From: a virus
Virus record (IMG/VR): IMGVR_UViG_3300035487_000104
Coordinates: 1-23,569 of that record
Length of the DNA: 23,569 nucleotides
Strand: one strand, 5' to 3'
Shown: piece by piece, positions 15,645-21,996 of the stretch
Layout of the letters: each line of letters starts with the position of its first letter
How positions within the stretch are numbered: position 1 is the stretch's first letter
The notes under the pieces: generated by a model
What the model was told of the DNA's origin: nothing
Databases searched by the model: none
The model's input: only the letters and a program-made list of their open reading frames with translations
Position numbers and translations under genes: made by a program

Positions 15645-16217
15645 TTATGCACTCATTCCAATAATTGTAAAGTAGATAGATGCATAGTTAACCGTCACAG
15701 CATCAGCACTTGCTTTAGTTTTAATTTCAATGTAATCGTTCTGGGCCAAGGCAGTTAAACCTGTAACTGTAATAGAACCCCAAGTACCTGTGGATATACT
15801 ACGGATTGCTCTTGATCCTACAATCTCTGTTCCGTTCTTAAACAAGGCCCACTCAATATCGTGGCTGGGGCCAGTGGACTGTGTAGCAGATAGAGTAAGA
15901 TTTAAAAGACCTGTGATTGCTGTAGCACTTGTATACTTTAAACGTAGGTTAGGAGAGGTAACTACTGTAAAGCCATTGTTTACTGTACTGTCTACCGTAG
16001 GAGAAAGAAAAGTCTCTGTTGTACTCGTAACAAGGATGTGACCATACGGGGAAGCTTTATCAAATGTTGTAGCTACTGCTAAGTGTTGGTGTATAGGTTG
16101 CCACGTACCTGAACCAGAACCATTAGCTACGTAAGTAGAACCACTGCTTGCAGCAGCCGTACCTTTAGGTTCGTGAAGGGAGCTACCAGTAAGTACTGAG
16201 TGTTCTACGTTAGCCAT
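15645..16217 (-). CDS. putative virion surface or fibre-type protein, 190 aa
   Basis: A 190-residue, Ser/Thr/Gly-rich beta protein. The N-terminus (NVEHSVLTGSSLHEPKGTAA then SGSTYVANGSGSGTWQP) has a layout that I recognise from phage structural proteins attached to capsid or tail. The C-terminal 100 residues alternate short strands (LLNLTLSATQSTG, DYIEIKTKASADAVTVNYAS) and look like a jelly-roll or sandwich. It is the first gene after a terminator-like hairpin and a consensus promoter, and lies between major capsid protein and tail tubular A. It may be a head decoration or head-fibre protein; no enzyme motif. AAGGA lies nine bases before ATG 16217. Confidence 0.75.
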   Translation of the reverse strand: MANVEHSVLTGSSLHEPKGTAAASSGSTYVANGSGSGTWQPIHQHLAVATTFDKASPYGHILVTSTTETFLSPTVDSTVNNGFTVVTSPNLRLKYTSATAITGLLNLTLSATQSTGPSHDIEWALFKNGTEIVGSRAIRSISTGTWGSITVTGLTALAQNDYIEIKTKASADAVTVNYASIYFTIIGMSA

Positions 16218-16254
16218 TGTGATTAGTCCTTATCGGGGGAGACTTGTTAAGACT

Positions 16255-16283
16255 ATTATACACACAAGTAAAATAGTTGTCAA
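16255..16283 (-). promoter_or_regulatory. consensus sigma-70 promoter for tail genes
   Basis: Read on the minus strand: TTGACA (16283-16278), a spacer of exactly 17 bases, then TATAAT (16260-16255). Both boxes are perfect consensus. The expected start of transcription is near 16248, giving a leader of about 30 bases before the 190-residue gene, with AAGGA in it. It sits in the 118-base gap after the major capsid gene. The spacer contains TTACTTGTG, shared nearly exactly with the portal promoter. Confidence 0.88.
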
Positions 16284-16290
16284 GTGAAAA

Positions 16291-16320
16291 AGAGTAGAAG
16301 GAGGAGATTTCTCCCCTCCC
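16291..16320 (-). terminator. probable terminator after the major capsid gene
   Basis: On the minus strand, GGGGAG (16316-16311) can pair with CTCCTC (16306-16301) around AAAT, with one G-U pair, and the stem can extend weakly. CTTCTACTCTTTTTC follows, so the U-tract is present but starts about nine bases after the stem. It lies some 20 bases past the capsid gene stop and directly before the promoter for the tail genes. The distance of the tract makes it a partial or weak terminator. Confidence 0.55.
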
Positions 16321-16335
16321 CCTGTATTTATGTCA

Positions 16336-17283
16336 CTATGCTAAAGGAGCAGTAAGTACAGTAACAAAGTTTTCTGGACGGTACAATTTCAGACCGTAAC
16401 GTGCAGTAGTAACAAACTCTGTACGTTGGTAGTCTTTGTTGTACTCTGTGTCCACAGTTGGCATCTGACGCCATGCACCAACAAACGGTACTACTGCTTG
16501 GTCAGCAGAGAAGAACATGTTGTTGAGAGCTACGTTTGGAGCAGCTATGCCACCAACTGTTTCAGCACCAGCATTGGCACGAAGGTAGTTAGAAGTATAA
16601 ACGTCAAAGCCGTAGATGTTGGCGATGAAGGACATACCTGTTGCAATACCTGTGTTGACGATACCTTCCCACTTTGGGTTGTTAGCAACTGTTGTCAAGG
16701 ATGAAAGTGTGTTCAGTTCAAACTCAACTGATGGGTCTACAATAGCAACGAGGTTACGTTGTGGAACCTTACCAGTTTTTAATGCACGAAGGGCTTTAGC
16801 AAAGTCAGCTACACCAATCTTGCCACTGCCACCTGATCCTACCATACGGTGAGCAACACCATTGATAAGGTTCGGGTTAGCATTTGTTTGTTCGGAACTT
16901 AGTTTCATAATGTCTGTTTCCAGACGTTCCATCAAAGCACGTTCCTGAAGTGGTACGAACTGTGACATTACTTCGTTTGCATAGTACACATCTTGCATTG
17001 CTTTGTTTGTGATGTAGTTACCAGACTGCAAGTACTCAGTAATTGTGAAAGTAAACTGAGCATCGTCAAGTGCTGTGTATGCAACACTTGTGTCCTCAGT
17101 GTAGTTAGCAACGGTTGCATCACCCAAGGATGGGATTTTAAAGGTATCACCGTCTGGGAAGCTGTCGAGCCACTTCACATACTGCATACCTTGCAGTTCG
17201 TCACGTAAGATTTCTTTAAGTTCGGCAGACCAAACTTCAGCACGTTTCATTAGTGCTAGGGTTGCTACTGTATTACCAGCCAT
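16336..17283 (-). CDS. major capsid protein, 315 aa
   Basis: A 315-residue major head protein, expected to have the HK97 fold and form the capsid shell. It follows the scaffold gene by 11 bases, as in T7 (gene 9 then 10; gp10A is 345 residues). Seen: N-terminal helix (AEVWSAELKEILRDELQ), the loop/strand region DTFKIPSLGDATVANYTED, a long helix (VMSQFVPLQERALMERLETD) and a C-terminal YGLKLYRPENFVTVLTAP, the usual ending of a capsid protein. The gene has its own strong ribosome binding site (AAGGA, eight bases before ATG) and is followed by a terminator-like hairpin. No sign of a frameshifted long form. Confidence 0.9.
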   Translation of the reverse strand: MAGNTVATLALMKRAEVWSAELKEILRDELQGMQYVKWLDSFPDGDTFKIPSLGDATVANYTEDTSVAYTALDDAQFTFTITEYLQSGNYITNKAMQDVYYANEVMSQFVPLQERALMERLETDIMKLSSEQTNANPNLINGVAHRMVGSGGSGKIGVADFAKALRALKTGKVPQRNLVAIVDPSVEFELNTLSSLTTVANNPKWEGIVNTGIATGMSFIANIYGFDVYTSNYLRANAGAETVGGIAAPNVALNNMFFSADQAVVPFVGAWRQMPTVDTEYNKDYQRTEFVTTARYGLKLYRPENFVTVLTAPLA

Positions 17284-17294
17284 TGTCGTATTCC

Positions 17295-18062
17295 TTATTT
17301 CATAAAGTTGTCACCCAGACGGTCGGCATCAGCCATCATTTGCCGTTGGGTTGAGGGTTTATAGTATAGCTTAGAGTTTTCTCTACGTAGCTTCTGATAG
17401 AAGGCGAAGTCTTGAGTAGAGGATGCTTGCATTGTAGAACCTTCAGTACGAATGCTCCCTTGAATTATTGGAGAGAGTTGAGGTGCTGGCTTACCCATGA
17501 GTTGCATAAATGCAGATGGGGATTTAGCAGCCATACCTTGTAGCTCTGCCATTGGTAGTCCAAGTTCAGAAGCCTTCTGTTGTACAGCAGAGGCAGCTTC
17601 CGTTCCGTAGGACTTTTCAAGTTCCGATTCAACTAGGGCAATATTGCTCTTTGCAAAACCTTCTTGCTCTCGTTTCTTCAGGGTCTGTTCAACTAGGCTC
17701 TCAATGTTTGCTTCACTCGAATTTAGCTGGGTGTTAGCCGTACTCGAAGTGCCACCGTTATTATTATTGGGGTCTGAAAGTTCGGCGGTGGATTCCGAGG
17801 CCGTTTCTCTCAGTTGGTCTGCAACTCCTAGTCGATAAGCCTGTTTCTCTAGGTCAGATTTTAAAGCAGCATTCTCTTGTTTCATCTGTTCGATAAAACT
17901 ATCTGCTTCTAACTTCCCTTTAGCTAGTGCTTCGACATCATTGAACTTACGTCCCTCTCCCACAAGATCACCTAGGACTGAAGAACTGGTCGGCTCTCCA
18001 AAGGCGGATACTTGTTCAGTCTGTGATACAGGGGTCACCTGATCCTCAGAAAATACCCTCAT
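17295..18062 (-). CDS. capsid scaffolding protein, 255 aa
   Basis: A 255-residue scaffold that directs assembly of the prohead and then leaves. It lies between portal and major capsid genes, the standard place. It is acidic and helical with a coiled-coil segment at about 46-80 (KGKLEADSFIEQMKQENAAL), a low-complexity linker with four Asn in a row (DPNNNNGGTSS) near 97-107, and a C-terminal basic/aromatic end (FYQKLRRENSKLYYKPS) followed by DRLGDNFMK, typical of scaffold domains that bind the coat protein. T7 gp9 is 307 residues. ATG 18062 follows AAGGA by six bases. Confidence 0.86.
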   Translation of the reverse strand: MRVFSEDQVTPVSQTEQVSAFGEPTSSSVLGDLVGEGRKFNDVEALAKGKLEADSFIEQMKQENAALKSDLEKQAYRLGVADQLRETASESTAELSDPNNNNGGTSSTANTQLNSSEANIESLVEQTLKKREQEGFAKSNIALVESELEKSYGTEAASAVQQKASELGLPMAELQGMAAKSPSAFMQLMGKPAPQLSPIIQGSIRTEGSTMQASSTQDFAFYQKLRRENSKLYYKPSTQRQMMADADRLGDNFMK

Positions 18063-18064
18063 TG

Positions 18065-18307
18065 TTATTCCTTGTCTAAGTTGATGAGATCAAGAACAGT
18101 GGTCACTGCCCTATTAAACCCATTACGATCTGCTTGCTTGTATGCCCACGAAGGGGAGTCATAGTCACTAGCAGGGTTACTATCCTTGAGCAGAGGCTCT
18201 AGAATTTCTTTAAGACGGTCAAGGCTCTCACGATTTGATTGGAGTACTTGGGTAACCGACTCTTTATCTTTCTTAGTCTTACAGCCCTTAAACCATGCTG
18301 TCTTCAT
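18065..18307 (-). CDS. hypothetical protein between portal and scaffold, 80 aa
   Basis: An 80-residue protein of unknown function. It begins MKTAWFKGCKTKKDKESV, has a helix with a leucine pattern (LDRLKEILEPLLKDS), then YDSPSWAYKQADRNGFNRA and a final helix VTTVLDLINLDKE. No membrane segment or known motif; the central aromatic block looks conserved. The start overlaps the portal stop as TAATG, so its translation is probably coupled to the portal, and it ends two bases before the scaffold start. A small assembly factor for the portal or scaffold is plausible from place alone. Confidence 0.8.
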   Translation of the reverse strand: MKTAWFKGCKTKKDKESVTQVLQSNRESLDRLKEILEPLLKDSNPASDYDSPSWAYKQADRNGFNRAVTTVLDLINLDKE

Positions 18308-20103
18308 TACTGCTGTTCCTCTTCAGCTACTTGCTCTGCAGGTGCAGCCTCAAGCTCTTGCATACCCTCTTCAGCCTTCTCTTCCTGTTCAGCTTCAAAA
18401 TCAACTTGAGCTTCTGTGACAACTTTCTGTGTTTCAAGTTGCTCAGTAACTGAGATGTTTTCACTGAAGAGTGCTGGCTCACCAAGTTCATCTGCAAGCA
18501 AACGAGCAAACTCTTTACCTGAAAGGTGGGCAGCTACCGTAGGATCAGATGCTTTAATTTGGAACATGGTGGTGAGGTTCTGCACACGTTGAGCACGTTC
18601 AGCAAAGTGTCTGGCTCCCAAGGGAACAAGCTTACCATTTGCCTTAATGTCCTCACGGGTAATCTGTGTAAAAAAGTAAAGACCTGTATCATCGTTAAGC
18701 ACACGTACTGTATCTTGATAGTCCATATTTCTACGGGATACTTCAAGCATAGCATTTAAGATTGGCTCAAGGAACACACGTTCAAAGTGAGCAGTCTTGT
18801 GTTGGAAGATACGTCCAGCTGCAGTCATTAGCTGACCTACTTCAAAGGCTGTCTTCTCACCTGCACTACGAATACCCATAGCTTCACGGGGAGCACCAGC
18901 CATCATTTCCATCTTAGCTTCGATGTTGTTTATCTGGAAGTCAGCATTCAAGGCTGTTGTATCTGGTGCTAAGTAACCAACGTCACCCTCATCTCCAAGG
19001 TAGATACGAGCATTAGGAGCAAAGTCAAAGTCCTCTACATCTCCACGTATCTTAAGAACGGGGTAGGCTATCTGGTCAAACACATCAGCCTTTAAGTTTT
19101 CAAGATGGTCGATACGGTACTGCATCCCAACTAGATTGTCAAGCGGCCCCATAGCATAAAGGTTGTCAGGACGTTCTCTCCACCCTGCATGGAAGATAGG
19201 GTCACGGCCTAACCAGCTAGGGTTTTCTTCATTGCTTAAAACGTATGCACGATCAACAATAGTAATTATACGGTTGTTTAAAAACTCTCCGTTCTCTGAG
19301 TCGTATATGTCTCCGTAGAAAGTAAGTACCTCTACGTAGTTAGATTCATAGTACGAGGAAATGTTTGAGAAACCATCAGCTACAAAACCTTCTGACTTAC
19401 TGGTAGTTACGTCTGCACCAAGAGAAGTTGAACGGTTCTTTAACATCCTATCAAAGATTTCAGAAGTGTACTCAGGATTTAAACCTGACTTAATCTTACG
19501 TTGTATCTCACCCATTGTAAGAATAGATCGTATAATTTTAGGGCTGTCACCAAATTCAGATGCAACAGGATTGAAGCAAATGTCGTAAGGAGAAACACGT
19601 ACAAGTTTAGGCCCAATATAATTTACTACACGGTCACCGTCTTTGTACTCTGTTATCTTACGTTGAAACTCTACCATAGCAAAACAATTACCGTACTGGA
19701 TATAGTCGTTAATCAGTCGGCTTGTTGTATTAACAAAGTCTGACTGATTGATCTTGTTGTCCATGTAGGCTTGTATAATGTCTCGTTTTATCTTAACGTC
19801 TGAGTCTTCATCAGTTGCCTCAAACCTCATCCAACGCCTCTGGGGAAACAGTGCTGCAAAGTAGTTAGCATGTAGGTTGTCAGCAATCTGTGTGAGCTTT
19901 GGAGTAGTAGTAGAGTTAGACCAAGGCAACTTGTTATTGCTTGTTGTACGTGTATCTGTAGCATAGATGTAGTTACGAAGCTCTTTCCATTCCTTAATCT
20001 TTTCAGAACGGGCATTGTTCCACTCAGTCCAACGGCTAGAAACATCCACAGCCAAGGCGTGAGGATCAATCATGCTTTCAATATCTATTGTAGTACCAGC
20101 CAT
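18307..20103 (-). CDS. portal (head-to-tail connector) protein, 598 aa
   Basis: A 598-residue portal of the podovirus gp8 type, forming the ring at one capsid vertex through which DNA enters and leaves. Strong signs: N-terminal helix (SSRWTEWNNARSEKIKEWKE), the LPWSNSTTTPKLTQI block, RVSPYDICFNPVAS, the segment DNLVGMQYRIDHLENLKADV and the family hallmark GIRSAGEKTAFEVGQLM followed by a long helix with FERVFLEPILNAMLE. The C-terminal 50 residues are very acidic with many Glu and Gln, probably disordered. T7 gp8 is 536 residues. AGGAG lies five bases before ATG 20103, and a strong promoter lies just upstream. Confidence 0.94.
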   Translation of the reverse strand: MAGTTIDIESMIDPHALAVDVSSRWTEWNNARSEKIKEWKELRNYIYATDTRTTSNNKLPWSNSTTTPKLTQIADNLHANYFAALFPQRRWMRFEATDEDSDVKIKRDIIQAYMDNKINQSDFVNTTSRLINDYIQYGNCFAMVEFQRKITEYKDGDRVVNYIGPKLVRVSPYDICFNPVASEFGDSPKIIRSILTMGEIQRKIKSGLNPEYTSEIFDRMLKNRSTSLGADVTTSKSEGFVADGFSNISSYYESNYVEVLTFYGDIYDSENGEFLNNRIITIVDRAYVLSNEENPSWLGRDPIFHAGWRERPDNLYAMGPLDNLVGMQYRIDHLENLKADVFDQIAYPVLKIRGDVEDFDFAPNARIYLGDEGDVGYLAPDTTALNADFQINNIEAKMEMMAGAPREAMGIRSAGEKTAFEVGQLMTAAGRIFQHKTAHFERVFLEPILNAMLEVSRRNMDYQDTVRVLNDDTGLYFFTQITREDIKANGKLVPLGARHFAERAQRVQNLTTMFQIKASDPTVAAHLSGKEFARLLADELGEPALFSENISVTEQLETQKVVTEAQVDFEAEQEEKAEEGMQELEAAPAEQVAEEEQQ

Positions 20104-20111
20104 TTCGACTC

Positions 20112-20122
20112 CTAAGACTTAG
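20112..20122. promoter_or_regulatory. palindrome overlapping the portal ribosome binding site
   Basis: CTAAGTCTTAG on the minus strand is a perfect inverted repeat with one central base. Its right arm overlaps TTAGGAG, the ribosome binding site of the portal gene. With a three-base loop it could make a weak hairpin hiding part of the site; as double-stranded DNA it could be a small operator. It may also be chance, given its short length. Confidence 0.35.
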
Positions 20123-20126
20123 CTTA

Positions 20127-20144
20127 TGTGATAATAATATCACA
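20127..20144. promoter_or_regulatory. inverted repeat over the portal promoter -10 region
   Basis: TGTGATA (20127-20133) and TATCACA (20138-20144) are a perfect seven-base inverted repeat around ATAA. The -10 box TATTAT of the portal promoter lies inside it. Placement over the -10 fits an operator for a repressor or activator; no U-tract follows, so it is not a terminator. Confidence 0.45.
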
Positions 20145-20162
20145 ATGTAATTTTATTGTCAA
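20134..20162 (-). promoter_or_regulatory. near-consensus sigma-70 promoter for portal and head genes
   Basis: On the minus strand, TTGACA (20162-20157), exactly 17 bases, then TATTAT (20139-20134): one mismatch from consensus. The start of transcription would be near 20127, giving a leader of about 25 bases before the portal ATG. The -35 sits directly behind the terminase stop codon. CACTTGACAA and TTAC-TTGTG elements are shared with the tail promoter at 16255-16283. Confidence 0.85.
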
Positions 20163-20165
20163 GTG

Positions 20166-21710
20166 CTAAAATGCAACACCACCAAACTTAGGGTGAAATA
20201 CTACATTGTTTTCTTGACCTTGGGTTCTTCTTACTGACACACTTGGCTTGATAGCTACCTCAACAGCAGCTGCTAAACAGTCCTTGCAGTCATCGTGGGC
20301 TGGGTTGTAAGAGACTAGCTCTTCCTCTAAGACTTGACAGTTGCCGCCACGGTAGTGATACACCTGTAAGTTGTCGTAACGTGGTTCAAGGATTGCTGCA
20401 ATACGTTCCTCTTTAGAACCTTGGTGACGGTTAGGTCTGTGCTCATCAATCTTTAATGCTAGACCGTTAGGCTTGATGTAGTTATCTTTAAGTTCAGATA
20501 CGATGGCTGACTGAGCAGCTGTACACTCTGCTCTTAGCTTCCTGAAGTCCCAACGGTTTAACAAGTCAAGTATGTGCCTGAAGTATTCAGAAATCTTATC
20601 TGTCTTAAAACGATCTATGTCTAAAACATATACGTTATTTTCAGAGTCCACTCCAATGACGATGATGGCAGTGTAGTCGGCACGTTTACTGACAGAGTAA
20701 GCAAAGTCCACAGCTGCACTAACATTTAATTTACGTCCTAGATAATGCCACTGTCCGTTGTCTCTAGTCATATGCTTACGTTCATAGTACTGAAACTTCT
20801 CATAGGCTATAGGCTGAGTGTCAGGATCAGTAGGGTCATTGTAGTACTGAGCACGAAACTGAACTCTGTCTAAGTACTGTCCACGTTTCTTAGCTAAGAT
20901 TTTAATGTTAAACCCAAAGTACTTACCATCTCTACGTAGCTGACGGGGCCAAAGAAAGTCACCAGTACCGTCACCATCATCCTCTACAGCCCTCTCCATT
21001 ACTTCATAGATTTCTGCCTTACCTTCTAGCTCACCAGCATCTGAGTACAGGTCTTCCTCCATGCCCATTAGATCACTGTAAAGGTCTTTCGGGTGGTAAC
21101 GTGTACCGACTACCCACTCCTGTGCCTCACTGCCCTCTATAGAGGATAACAGGGAGTACTGAGATTTAACTTTGTTACGTCCCTCGTTAGTGTAAGCATT
21201 CTCAAACACAACAACATCATCTAGTACTGCAATGTCACAGTGCATACCTGTAAGGGAAGTAGTAAGTCCACCAGTAAAGATTGATGGGTCACGTATAGAT
21301 TCTTTCTTACGGTCTGGGTGGTCTAAGGCAATCTCAGATGTAGTCCACTTCTCTCGTTTACTCTCATCTTTGTTTAAGTGTTGAGGCCAATACTTCTGGT
21401 GTATGTCTGACTCAAAGATGTTCTTGATAAACGATAGCTGCTTCTGGGCTAGGTTGGAGGTAGCTGAAATGTACAGCACCCGTAGGCTAGGGTTCTTAGT
21501 TAACTCCCATGCAACCCTGTAGGCTACCATAGCTGACTTGCCGTGGTCACGAGGAAACAGAAGCAACTGATGGGTCTTAGCTTCTTGCCTAGTCCACCAC
21601 TTGCACACATCTTCGTGGCAGTTACCTAGTACTCGTTGAGGAGCTACAAGCCTAATGAAAGTTATTAAGCTTGTTTCTGCAGCCTCTCTGATTTCAGTTA
21701 GAGTAGCCAT
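20166..21710 (-). CDS. terminase large subunit, 514 aa
   Basis: A 514-residue DNA-packaging motor and nuclease. With ATG at 21710: deviant Walker A FPRDHGKSA at 52-60, the SATS helicase-type block at 82-85, Walker B with IAVLDD at 160-165 and VGTRYHP at 201-207. The nuclease half shows AAVDFAYS (D335), RAECTA (E395) and HDDCKDCL (D473, D474, D477), fitting the RNase H-like acidic triad. T7 gp19 is 586 residues. The frame is open back to ATG 21749, which would overlap the previous gene by 32 bases and has no ribosome binding site; MATLTEIREAA at 21710 is the better start. The small terminase subunit is not seen here. Confidence 0.94.
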   Translation of the reverse strand: MATLTEIREAAETSLITFIRLVAPQRVLGNCHEDVCKWWTRQEAKTHQLLLFPRDHGKSAMVAYRVAWELTKNPSLRVLYISATSNLAQKQLSFIKNIFESDIHQKYWPQHLNKDESKREKWTTSEIALDHPDRKKESIRDPSIFTGGLTTSLTGMHCDIAVLDDVVVFENAYTNEGRNKVKSQYSLLSSIEGSEAQEWVVGTRYHPKDLYSDLMGMEEDLYSDAGELEGKAEIYEVMERAVEDDGDGTGDFLWPRQLRRDGKYFGFNIKILAKKRGQYLDRVQFRAQYYNDPTDPDTQPIAYEKFQYYERKHMTRDNGQWHYLGRKLNVSAAVDFAYSVSKRADYTAIIVIGVDSENNVYVLDIDRFKTDKISEYFRHILDLLNRWDFRKLRAECTAAQSAIVSELKDNYIKPNGLALKIDEHRPNRHQGSKEERIAAILEPRYDNLQVYHYRGGNCQVLEEELVSYNPAHDDCKDCLAAAVEVAIKPSVSVRRTQGQENNVVFHPKFGGVAF

Positions 21711-21717
21711 AGTGTGC

Positions 21718-21996
21718 TCATGGTGCTTCCCAGATGCATGTGTCTTCATTCAGAACCCAGCCTTCATCTGGCTGAGGCTCATAGAAGGCATCCCGTGTTG
21801 CATCGTATATTGAGCCAATGCCAGCATAGTTCTTACGTAGAGGTGTGCCACCGTCTGAGTGTACGCCGCCTAAAGTGTTGTAGCTAGTTTGCAGCCACGT
21901 ACCCGCCGAGCTATCTATGAATGTATCGAAGAACTCAGCCTCTGCTACAATGACTTGCTCGACGATGCCGCCGTTTACTTTTGCATAATGTGCCAT
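21718..21996 (-). CDS. conserved phage protein next to tail fibre, 92 aa
   Basis: A 92-residue protein beginning MAHYAKVNGGIVEQVIVAEA and containing EFFDTFIDSSAGTWLQTSY and RKNYAGIGSIYDATRDAFY, ending DTCIWEAP. I recognise this pattern as a common phage protein often found beside tail fibre genes in marine phages of several morphologies; the function is not known to me, perhaps a tail or assembly part. The copies I recall often run on with extra repeats after the IWEAP-type end, so this one may be a short form. It lies between fibre and terminase genes, eleven bases after the fibre stop, and ATG 21996 has a GGAG-type site just upstream. Confidence 0.82.
   Translation of the reverse strand: MAHYAKVNGGIVEQVIVAEAEFFDTFIDSSAGTWLQTSYNTLGGVHSDGGTPLRKNYAGIGSIYDATRDAFYEPQPDEGWVLNEDTCIWEAP

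Follow-up and report, generated by a model that had tools for sequence, protein, structure and literature searches.

Putative host sigma-70 promoters in the late arm of a Siovirus: a duplicated late core and a candidate operator at the portal promoter

The late arm and its features

The window, which is the whole stretch of DNA that was analysed, is an incomplete virus contig of 23.6 kb. In profile searches its late-arm proteins matched the PHROG families of portal, major head protein, terminase and tail. The portal, capsid, tail and internal-virion proteins were closest to those of Siovirus, and the portal was 83-84% identical to the portals of Celeribacter phage P12053L (83.7%), Lentibacter phage ICBM1 and Roseobacter phage SIO1. 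Judged by these similarities, the window represents a Siovirus late arm, from an SIO1-like member of the Cobavirinae (Zobellviridae), which are phages of Rhodobacteraceae. Glutaredoxin and PhoH lie at the start of the window; in relatives both come after the gene for a cobalamin-dependent ribonucleotide reductase, the place of which would be beyond the contig end. The head of the late arm of this phage is also outside the contig. SIO1 was the first marine phage to be sequenced, and cobaviruses belong to the phage groups that abound in coastal seas. The genes and elements considered here are as follows.

20166 to 21749, minus strand: terminase large subunit gene, upstream of P2 (PHROG 38, E 3.9e-91)
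20134 to 20162, minus strand: P2, the putative portal promoter, with TTGACA at 20162-20157, a 17-base spacer and TATTAT at 20139-20134 (11/12)
20127 to 20144, minus strand: inverted repeat TGTGATA-TTAT-TATCACA, a perfect 7-4-7 dyad over the P2 -10 hexamer, about -17 to +1
18307 to 20103, minus strand: portal (head-tail connector) gene, the first gene after P2 (PHROG 332, E 2.5e-109)
16336 to 17283, minus strand: major capsid gene, the last gene before the putative terminator (PHROG 267, E 5.8e-40)
16296 to 16323, minus strand: hairpin of 12 pairs with a T-rich tail, resembling a Rho-independent terminator, after the major capsid gene and just upstream of P3
16255 to 16283, minus strand: P3, the putative post-capsid promoter, with TTGACA at 16283-16278, a 17-base spacer and TATAAT at 16260-16255 (12/12, perfect consensus)
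16242 to 16264, minus strand: late-promoter core TGTGTATAATAGTCTTAACAAGT; the late-arm head promoter of relatives is almost identical here
15645 to 16217, minus strand: gene for a 190-residue protein of unassigned function, the first after P3 (PHROG 38624, E 9.8e-86)

Two near-consensus sites and their conservation

An earlier note on this DNA had described two near-consensus sigma-70 sites on the minus strand, and both were confirmed, with scores of 12/12 for P3 (16283-16255) and 11/12 for P2 (20162-20134). Each fits the host sigma-70 pattern of TTGACA, a spacer of 16-18 bases and TATAAT, each is conserved, and P2 has in addition a TG one base ahead of the -10 hexamer, as in an extended -10 promoter. 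No other site in the window, on either strand, scored 11/12 or better; first-order Markov copies of the sequence are expected to contain 0.7 such sites, so that the number of strong sites is not significant by itself. The two sites do, however, fall one each in two gaps of the late operon, P3 in a gap of 118 bases (16218-16335) and P2 in a gap of 62 bases (20104-20165). Another strong-looking site (23211-23182, 10/12) overlaps a start codon.

The pre-portal and post-capsid gaps were extracted from the fetched viral contigs and isolates. A degenerate portal-promoter pattern was also run against all viral contigs; the matches listed were mostly unrelated sites, and the analysis used just the ones that a portal start follows. 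Each of the 31 distinct pre-portal gaps of Siovirus type had TTGACA, a 17-base spacer and a -10 element, while TTGACA-17-TATAAT was found in 117 of 128 fetched post-capsid gaps, which are not all independent because some contigs were fetched twice. The comparison across related genomes that the earlier note had proposed thus found both promoters kept in dozens of distinct relatives. The portal promoter was absent from more distant members, where the terminase and portal genes abut or have another gene between them.

The gene order, both promoters, the dyad and the post-capsid hairpin of the window were also found in SIO1, P12053L and ICBM1, the records of which carry no promoter annotation. 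The same four strong sites were found in each of these genomes, with 0.4-0.6 expected, and SIO1 had one further match. In the complete Siovirus genomes three of the four lie in the late arm, at its head, before portal and behind the capsid gene, and one follows closely on the DNA polymerase gene on the early strand. The early-arm site, TTGACA-17-TACAATAATCAAACAGA directly after DNA polymerase (L001 10211, + strand; L002 9336; L003 17241), is a fourth conserved strong promoter and probably starts a middle transcription unit.

The Veravirus phages resemble the window in part. ICBM2 and CRP-5 have the same post-capsid promoter, with strong promoters also upstream of the terminase and at the late head. 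Unlike the window, however, ICBM2, CRP-5 and CRP-4 have neither the portal promoter nor the dyad; terminase and portal abut in ICBM2 and CRP-4, and another gene lies between them in CRP-5. CRP-4 has no site at all that scores 11/12 or better.

The hairpin after the capsid gene folds at -19.2 kcal/mol (z -2.7), and the succession of hairpin and promoter at this place also occurs in relatives. Inspection by eye of sequences without the post-capsid promoter (CRP-4, T5S1, L080 and L088) found a hairpin that lacked the T tail. This pattern of the gap after the capsid gene, noted for L005, L007, L080 and L088, looks as if putative terminator and promoter were gained and lost together. Coliphage T7 has the terminator T-phi directly after gene 10, which encodes its major capsid protein, an arrangement like that of the window. 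The late genes of T7 are nevertheless served by T7 RNA polymerase and phi promoters, whereas here a host-type promoter comes after the terminator.

The twin of the post-capsid promoter

P2 and P3 had been regarded in the earlier note as a matched pair, perhaps under a common regulator that would act through three spacer elements, CACTTGACAA, TTAC and TTGTG. The elements are present in the window as described, and the likeness of the two spacers there is real. It is, however, within chance: the 17-base spacers agree at 7 positions, where letter shuffles predict 5.0 (p about 0.19). The elements are also confined to a minority of relatives, TTAC occurring at that spacer position in 7/31 distinct portal promoters and 11/24 post-capsid promoters, TTGTG in 4/31 and 7/24, respectively, and CACTTGACAA in 1/10 portal contexts and 2/24 post-capsid promoters. 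Moreover, in genomes from which both gaps were available, the portal element goes from TGTG to GTTG, but TGTG is retained in the post-capsid promoter of that contig. Wherever the two promoters could be compared, they had in common only the hexamers and scattered spacer letters, and position-by-position identity past the hexamers was low. Joint control of P2 and P3 through these elements is therefore very unlikely.

The true twin of P3, as far as sequence likeness tells, is the promoter at the late-arm head of relatives, designated P1, which lies off the window and is assigned to this phage from those relatives. Across ten genomes, the identity of P1 and P3 was 0.6-1.0, and mostly 0.8-1.0, at every position from -16 to +12, and it dropped outside this interval except in the -35 hexamer. 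The common core, TGTG-TATAAT-AGTCTTAACAAGTCYCC, spans about -16 to +12, and the shared block continues past 16242-16264 through TCYCCCC. This promoter twin in relatives, the dyad at the portal -10 and the terminator-like hairpin before P3 were features that the earlier note had missed.

Two further observations concern the core. Because the duplicated segment (16242-16264 and about 10 bases beyond) extends over transcribed bases, AACAAGTCYCCCC, the shared block may have a role at the 5' end of the message as well. The idea that the core mimics a host chromosomal promoter was rejected: when TTGACA-17-TATAATAGNCTTAAC was searched for in 84,980 species genomes, there were 27 matches, nearly all of them in clostridial gut bacteria and none in a genome titled alphaproteobacterial.

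Host polymerase as the reader of the late genes

The Siovirus/Cobavirinae group has been reported to be without RNA polymerase (PMC6775973, PMC6918029). The searches agreed with these reports. The T7-type RNA polymerase family (RNA_pol) was found in none of six complete Cobavirinae isolate genomes, so that the phage single-subunit polymerase that goes with T7-type late promoters is missing from the complete relatives, and it was likewise absent from the window, itself an incomplete genome. Sigma-70 region 4 was found in none of seven complete Cobavirinae isolate or deposited genomes. The reported and searched absence of a phage polymerase, the lack of sigma-70 region 4 and the conservation of the promoters together favour the suggestion of the earlier note that the host polymerase reads the structural genes, and transcription of these genes by the host sigma-70 polymerase is well supported. 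The premise that host-type promoters are unusual here, as they would be in a T7-type phage, was mistaken; this phage is not a T7 relative that bears an RNA polymerase, and in a group without the enzyme host-type late promoters are to be expected rather than paradoxical.

It is hardly credible, by comparison, that other promoters serve the late genes through a phage RNA polymerase encoded beyond the 23.6-kb contig. The window is indeed incomplete, and one contig of 73 kb that contains Siovirus sequence (G003) holds a T7-type polymerase, but all six complete Cobavirinae isolates searched are without it, and the SIO1-like sequence of G003 stops just before the polymerase, with thyX-like sequence again at the contig end. 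This sole match within the group was set aside since the contig is apparently chimeric: at about 39-72 kb of G003:C1 (IMGVR_UViG_3300032085_000337; L330, L331) a near-complete SIO1-like genome is joined to a polymerase-bearing phage, and its sequence indicates that G003 is likely a chimeric assembly joined at thyX.

More than 60% of the sigma-70 promoters in the alphaproteobacteria studied are without T at -7 (PMC8407463). This T is kept in all three late promoters (P1, P2 and P3), which suggests that the phage promoters would be independent of the host activator CarD.

The dyad over the portal -10

The inverted repeat at P2 occurs once per complete Siovirus genome and was found in none of the relatives without the portal promoter; genomes in which terminase adjoins portal, or in which a further gene intervenes, have neither dyad nor promoter. 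The arms, TGTGATA/TATCACA in the window, are TGTGTTA/TAACACA in SIO1, P12053L and ICBM1, and these two classes recur among relatives together with a third, TGTTGTA/TACAACA, and with single-mismatch intermediates. Among the 31 distinct sequences, 96.3% of the dyad cells were paired, compared with 86.3% in shuffles, and the covariation score was 0.209, compared with 0.049 for shuffled sequences and at most 0.049 for slid controls. Pair 4/15 changed four times on the portal-gene tree, and every change was compensated on the other side, although the true count could be lower if phages exchange the short gap by recombination. Pair 5/14 was unpaired in 6/31 variants and pair 1/18 in 2. The TGTTG class has lost the TG of the extended -10 while its right arm has changed to CAACA to match, which indicates that it is the symmetry, and not the extended -10, that is kept.

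As read from these alignments, the dyad is a candidate operator, a two-fold symmetric site over a promoter with its symmetry kept by selection. A symmetric site that covers -10 and +1 is the usual geometry of steric repression, and the operators of repressors of the lambda CI, LacI and TetR type lie over promoters in a similar way, although the portal dyad is a single site per genome rather than one of a set of operators. The simplest reading of the dyad would be the operator of a dimeric repressor that blocks the polymerase, and the repressor is probably phage-encoded. The one annotated candidate, a phage winged-helix protein (PF14090), was set aside as doubtful because its distribution does not match that of the dyad: it occurs in the Siovirus isolates and in the dyad-less ICBM2 as well, and the Siovirus-like contig G002 has the dyad but lacks the protein.

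The main alternative is that the dyad acts as an RNA hairpin in transcripts that read through from terminase to portal, where it could serve processing, stability or control of translation, the overlap with the -10 being incidental. The dyad alone does fold at -6.3 kcal/mol (z -4.2), the fold persists in context, and a G-U pair is kept in one variant class. That class, however, is the only imperfect variant in which the mispair is G-U, the others having true mismatches; the dyad is present only where the promoter is; and, as it is centred on the -10, the transcripts of P2 itself would be without the left arm. This explanation is accordingly improbable. We consider it similarly improbable that a host transcription factor or nucleoid protein binds the dyad, so that portal expression senses the state of the host. 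TGTGA...TCACA resembles the half-sites of the CRP/FNR superfamily, but the spacing is TGTGA-N8-TCACA where CRP has N6, and the half-sites become TGTGT and TGTTG among close relatives, changes that would be more likely with a phage regulator that evolves fast, or after a host switch.

Proposed late programme

Taken together, the observations make it likely that the late arm of a polymerase-less Siovirus is served by three host sigma-70 promoters, P2 and P3 among them, with P1 and P3 as copies of one another and P2 under a symmetric operator. The host polymerase would read the late arm from P1 at the head, from P2 at the terminase/portal junction and from P3 after the capsid terminator. The terminator would stop most of the capsid messenger and cap the read-through, while P3 would restart transcription into the genes for the 190-residue protein, the tail, the internal-virion proteins and lysis, so that terminator and P3 could uncouple the dose of capsid from that of the downstream genes. 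At P2, a dimeric and probably phage-encoded protein bound to the dyad would cover the -10 and the start site, and the portal-scaffold-capsid unit would stay off until its release.

A more specific version is conceivable, although we advance it only tentatively: a rapidly diversifying Siovirus repressor may have one operator per genome, on the portal-scaffold-capsid promoter. It would fall into two or more specificity classes (TGTGN...NCACA, TGTTG...CAACA) and would be independent of the duplicated late-promoter type. If this is true, a lytic phage without RNA polymerase would have two separately controlled late transcription units.

Host-type promoters in phages without a polymerase and operators over the -10 are of kinds already known; what appears to be new is the detail, namely an operator that covaries and a late core that is duplicated. 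In the open-access literature, no published description of promoters in this phage group was found, nor any account of late-gene timing in cobaviruses without RNA polymerase. With the promoters conserved, the core duplicated and the operator covarying, there are exact sites to be tested, and they predict a late programme run by the host polymerase with at least two kinds of switch.

Minor observations on the genes

The portal in the reference SIO1 record (L003 1581-3346) is annotated as two frames, and the split probably reflects an old error of sequencing. A stretch with 64-72% identity to the first 39-42 residues of the 190-residue protein (MANVEHSVLTG...) also opens otherwise unmatched proteins in other virus contigs, which are without the promoter (L142 6001-6117; L143 6001-6126; L144 6001-6126). 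This N-terminus resembles an exchangeable module, perhaps a virion anchor.
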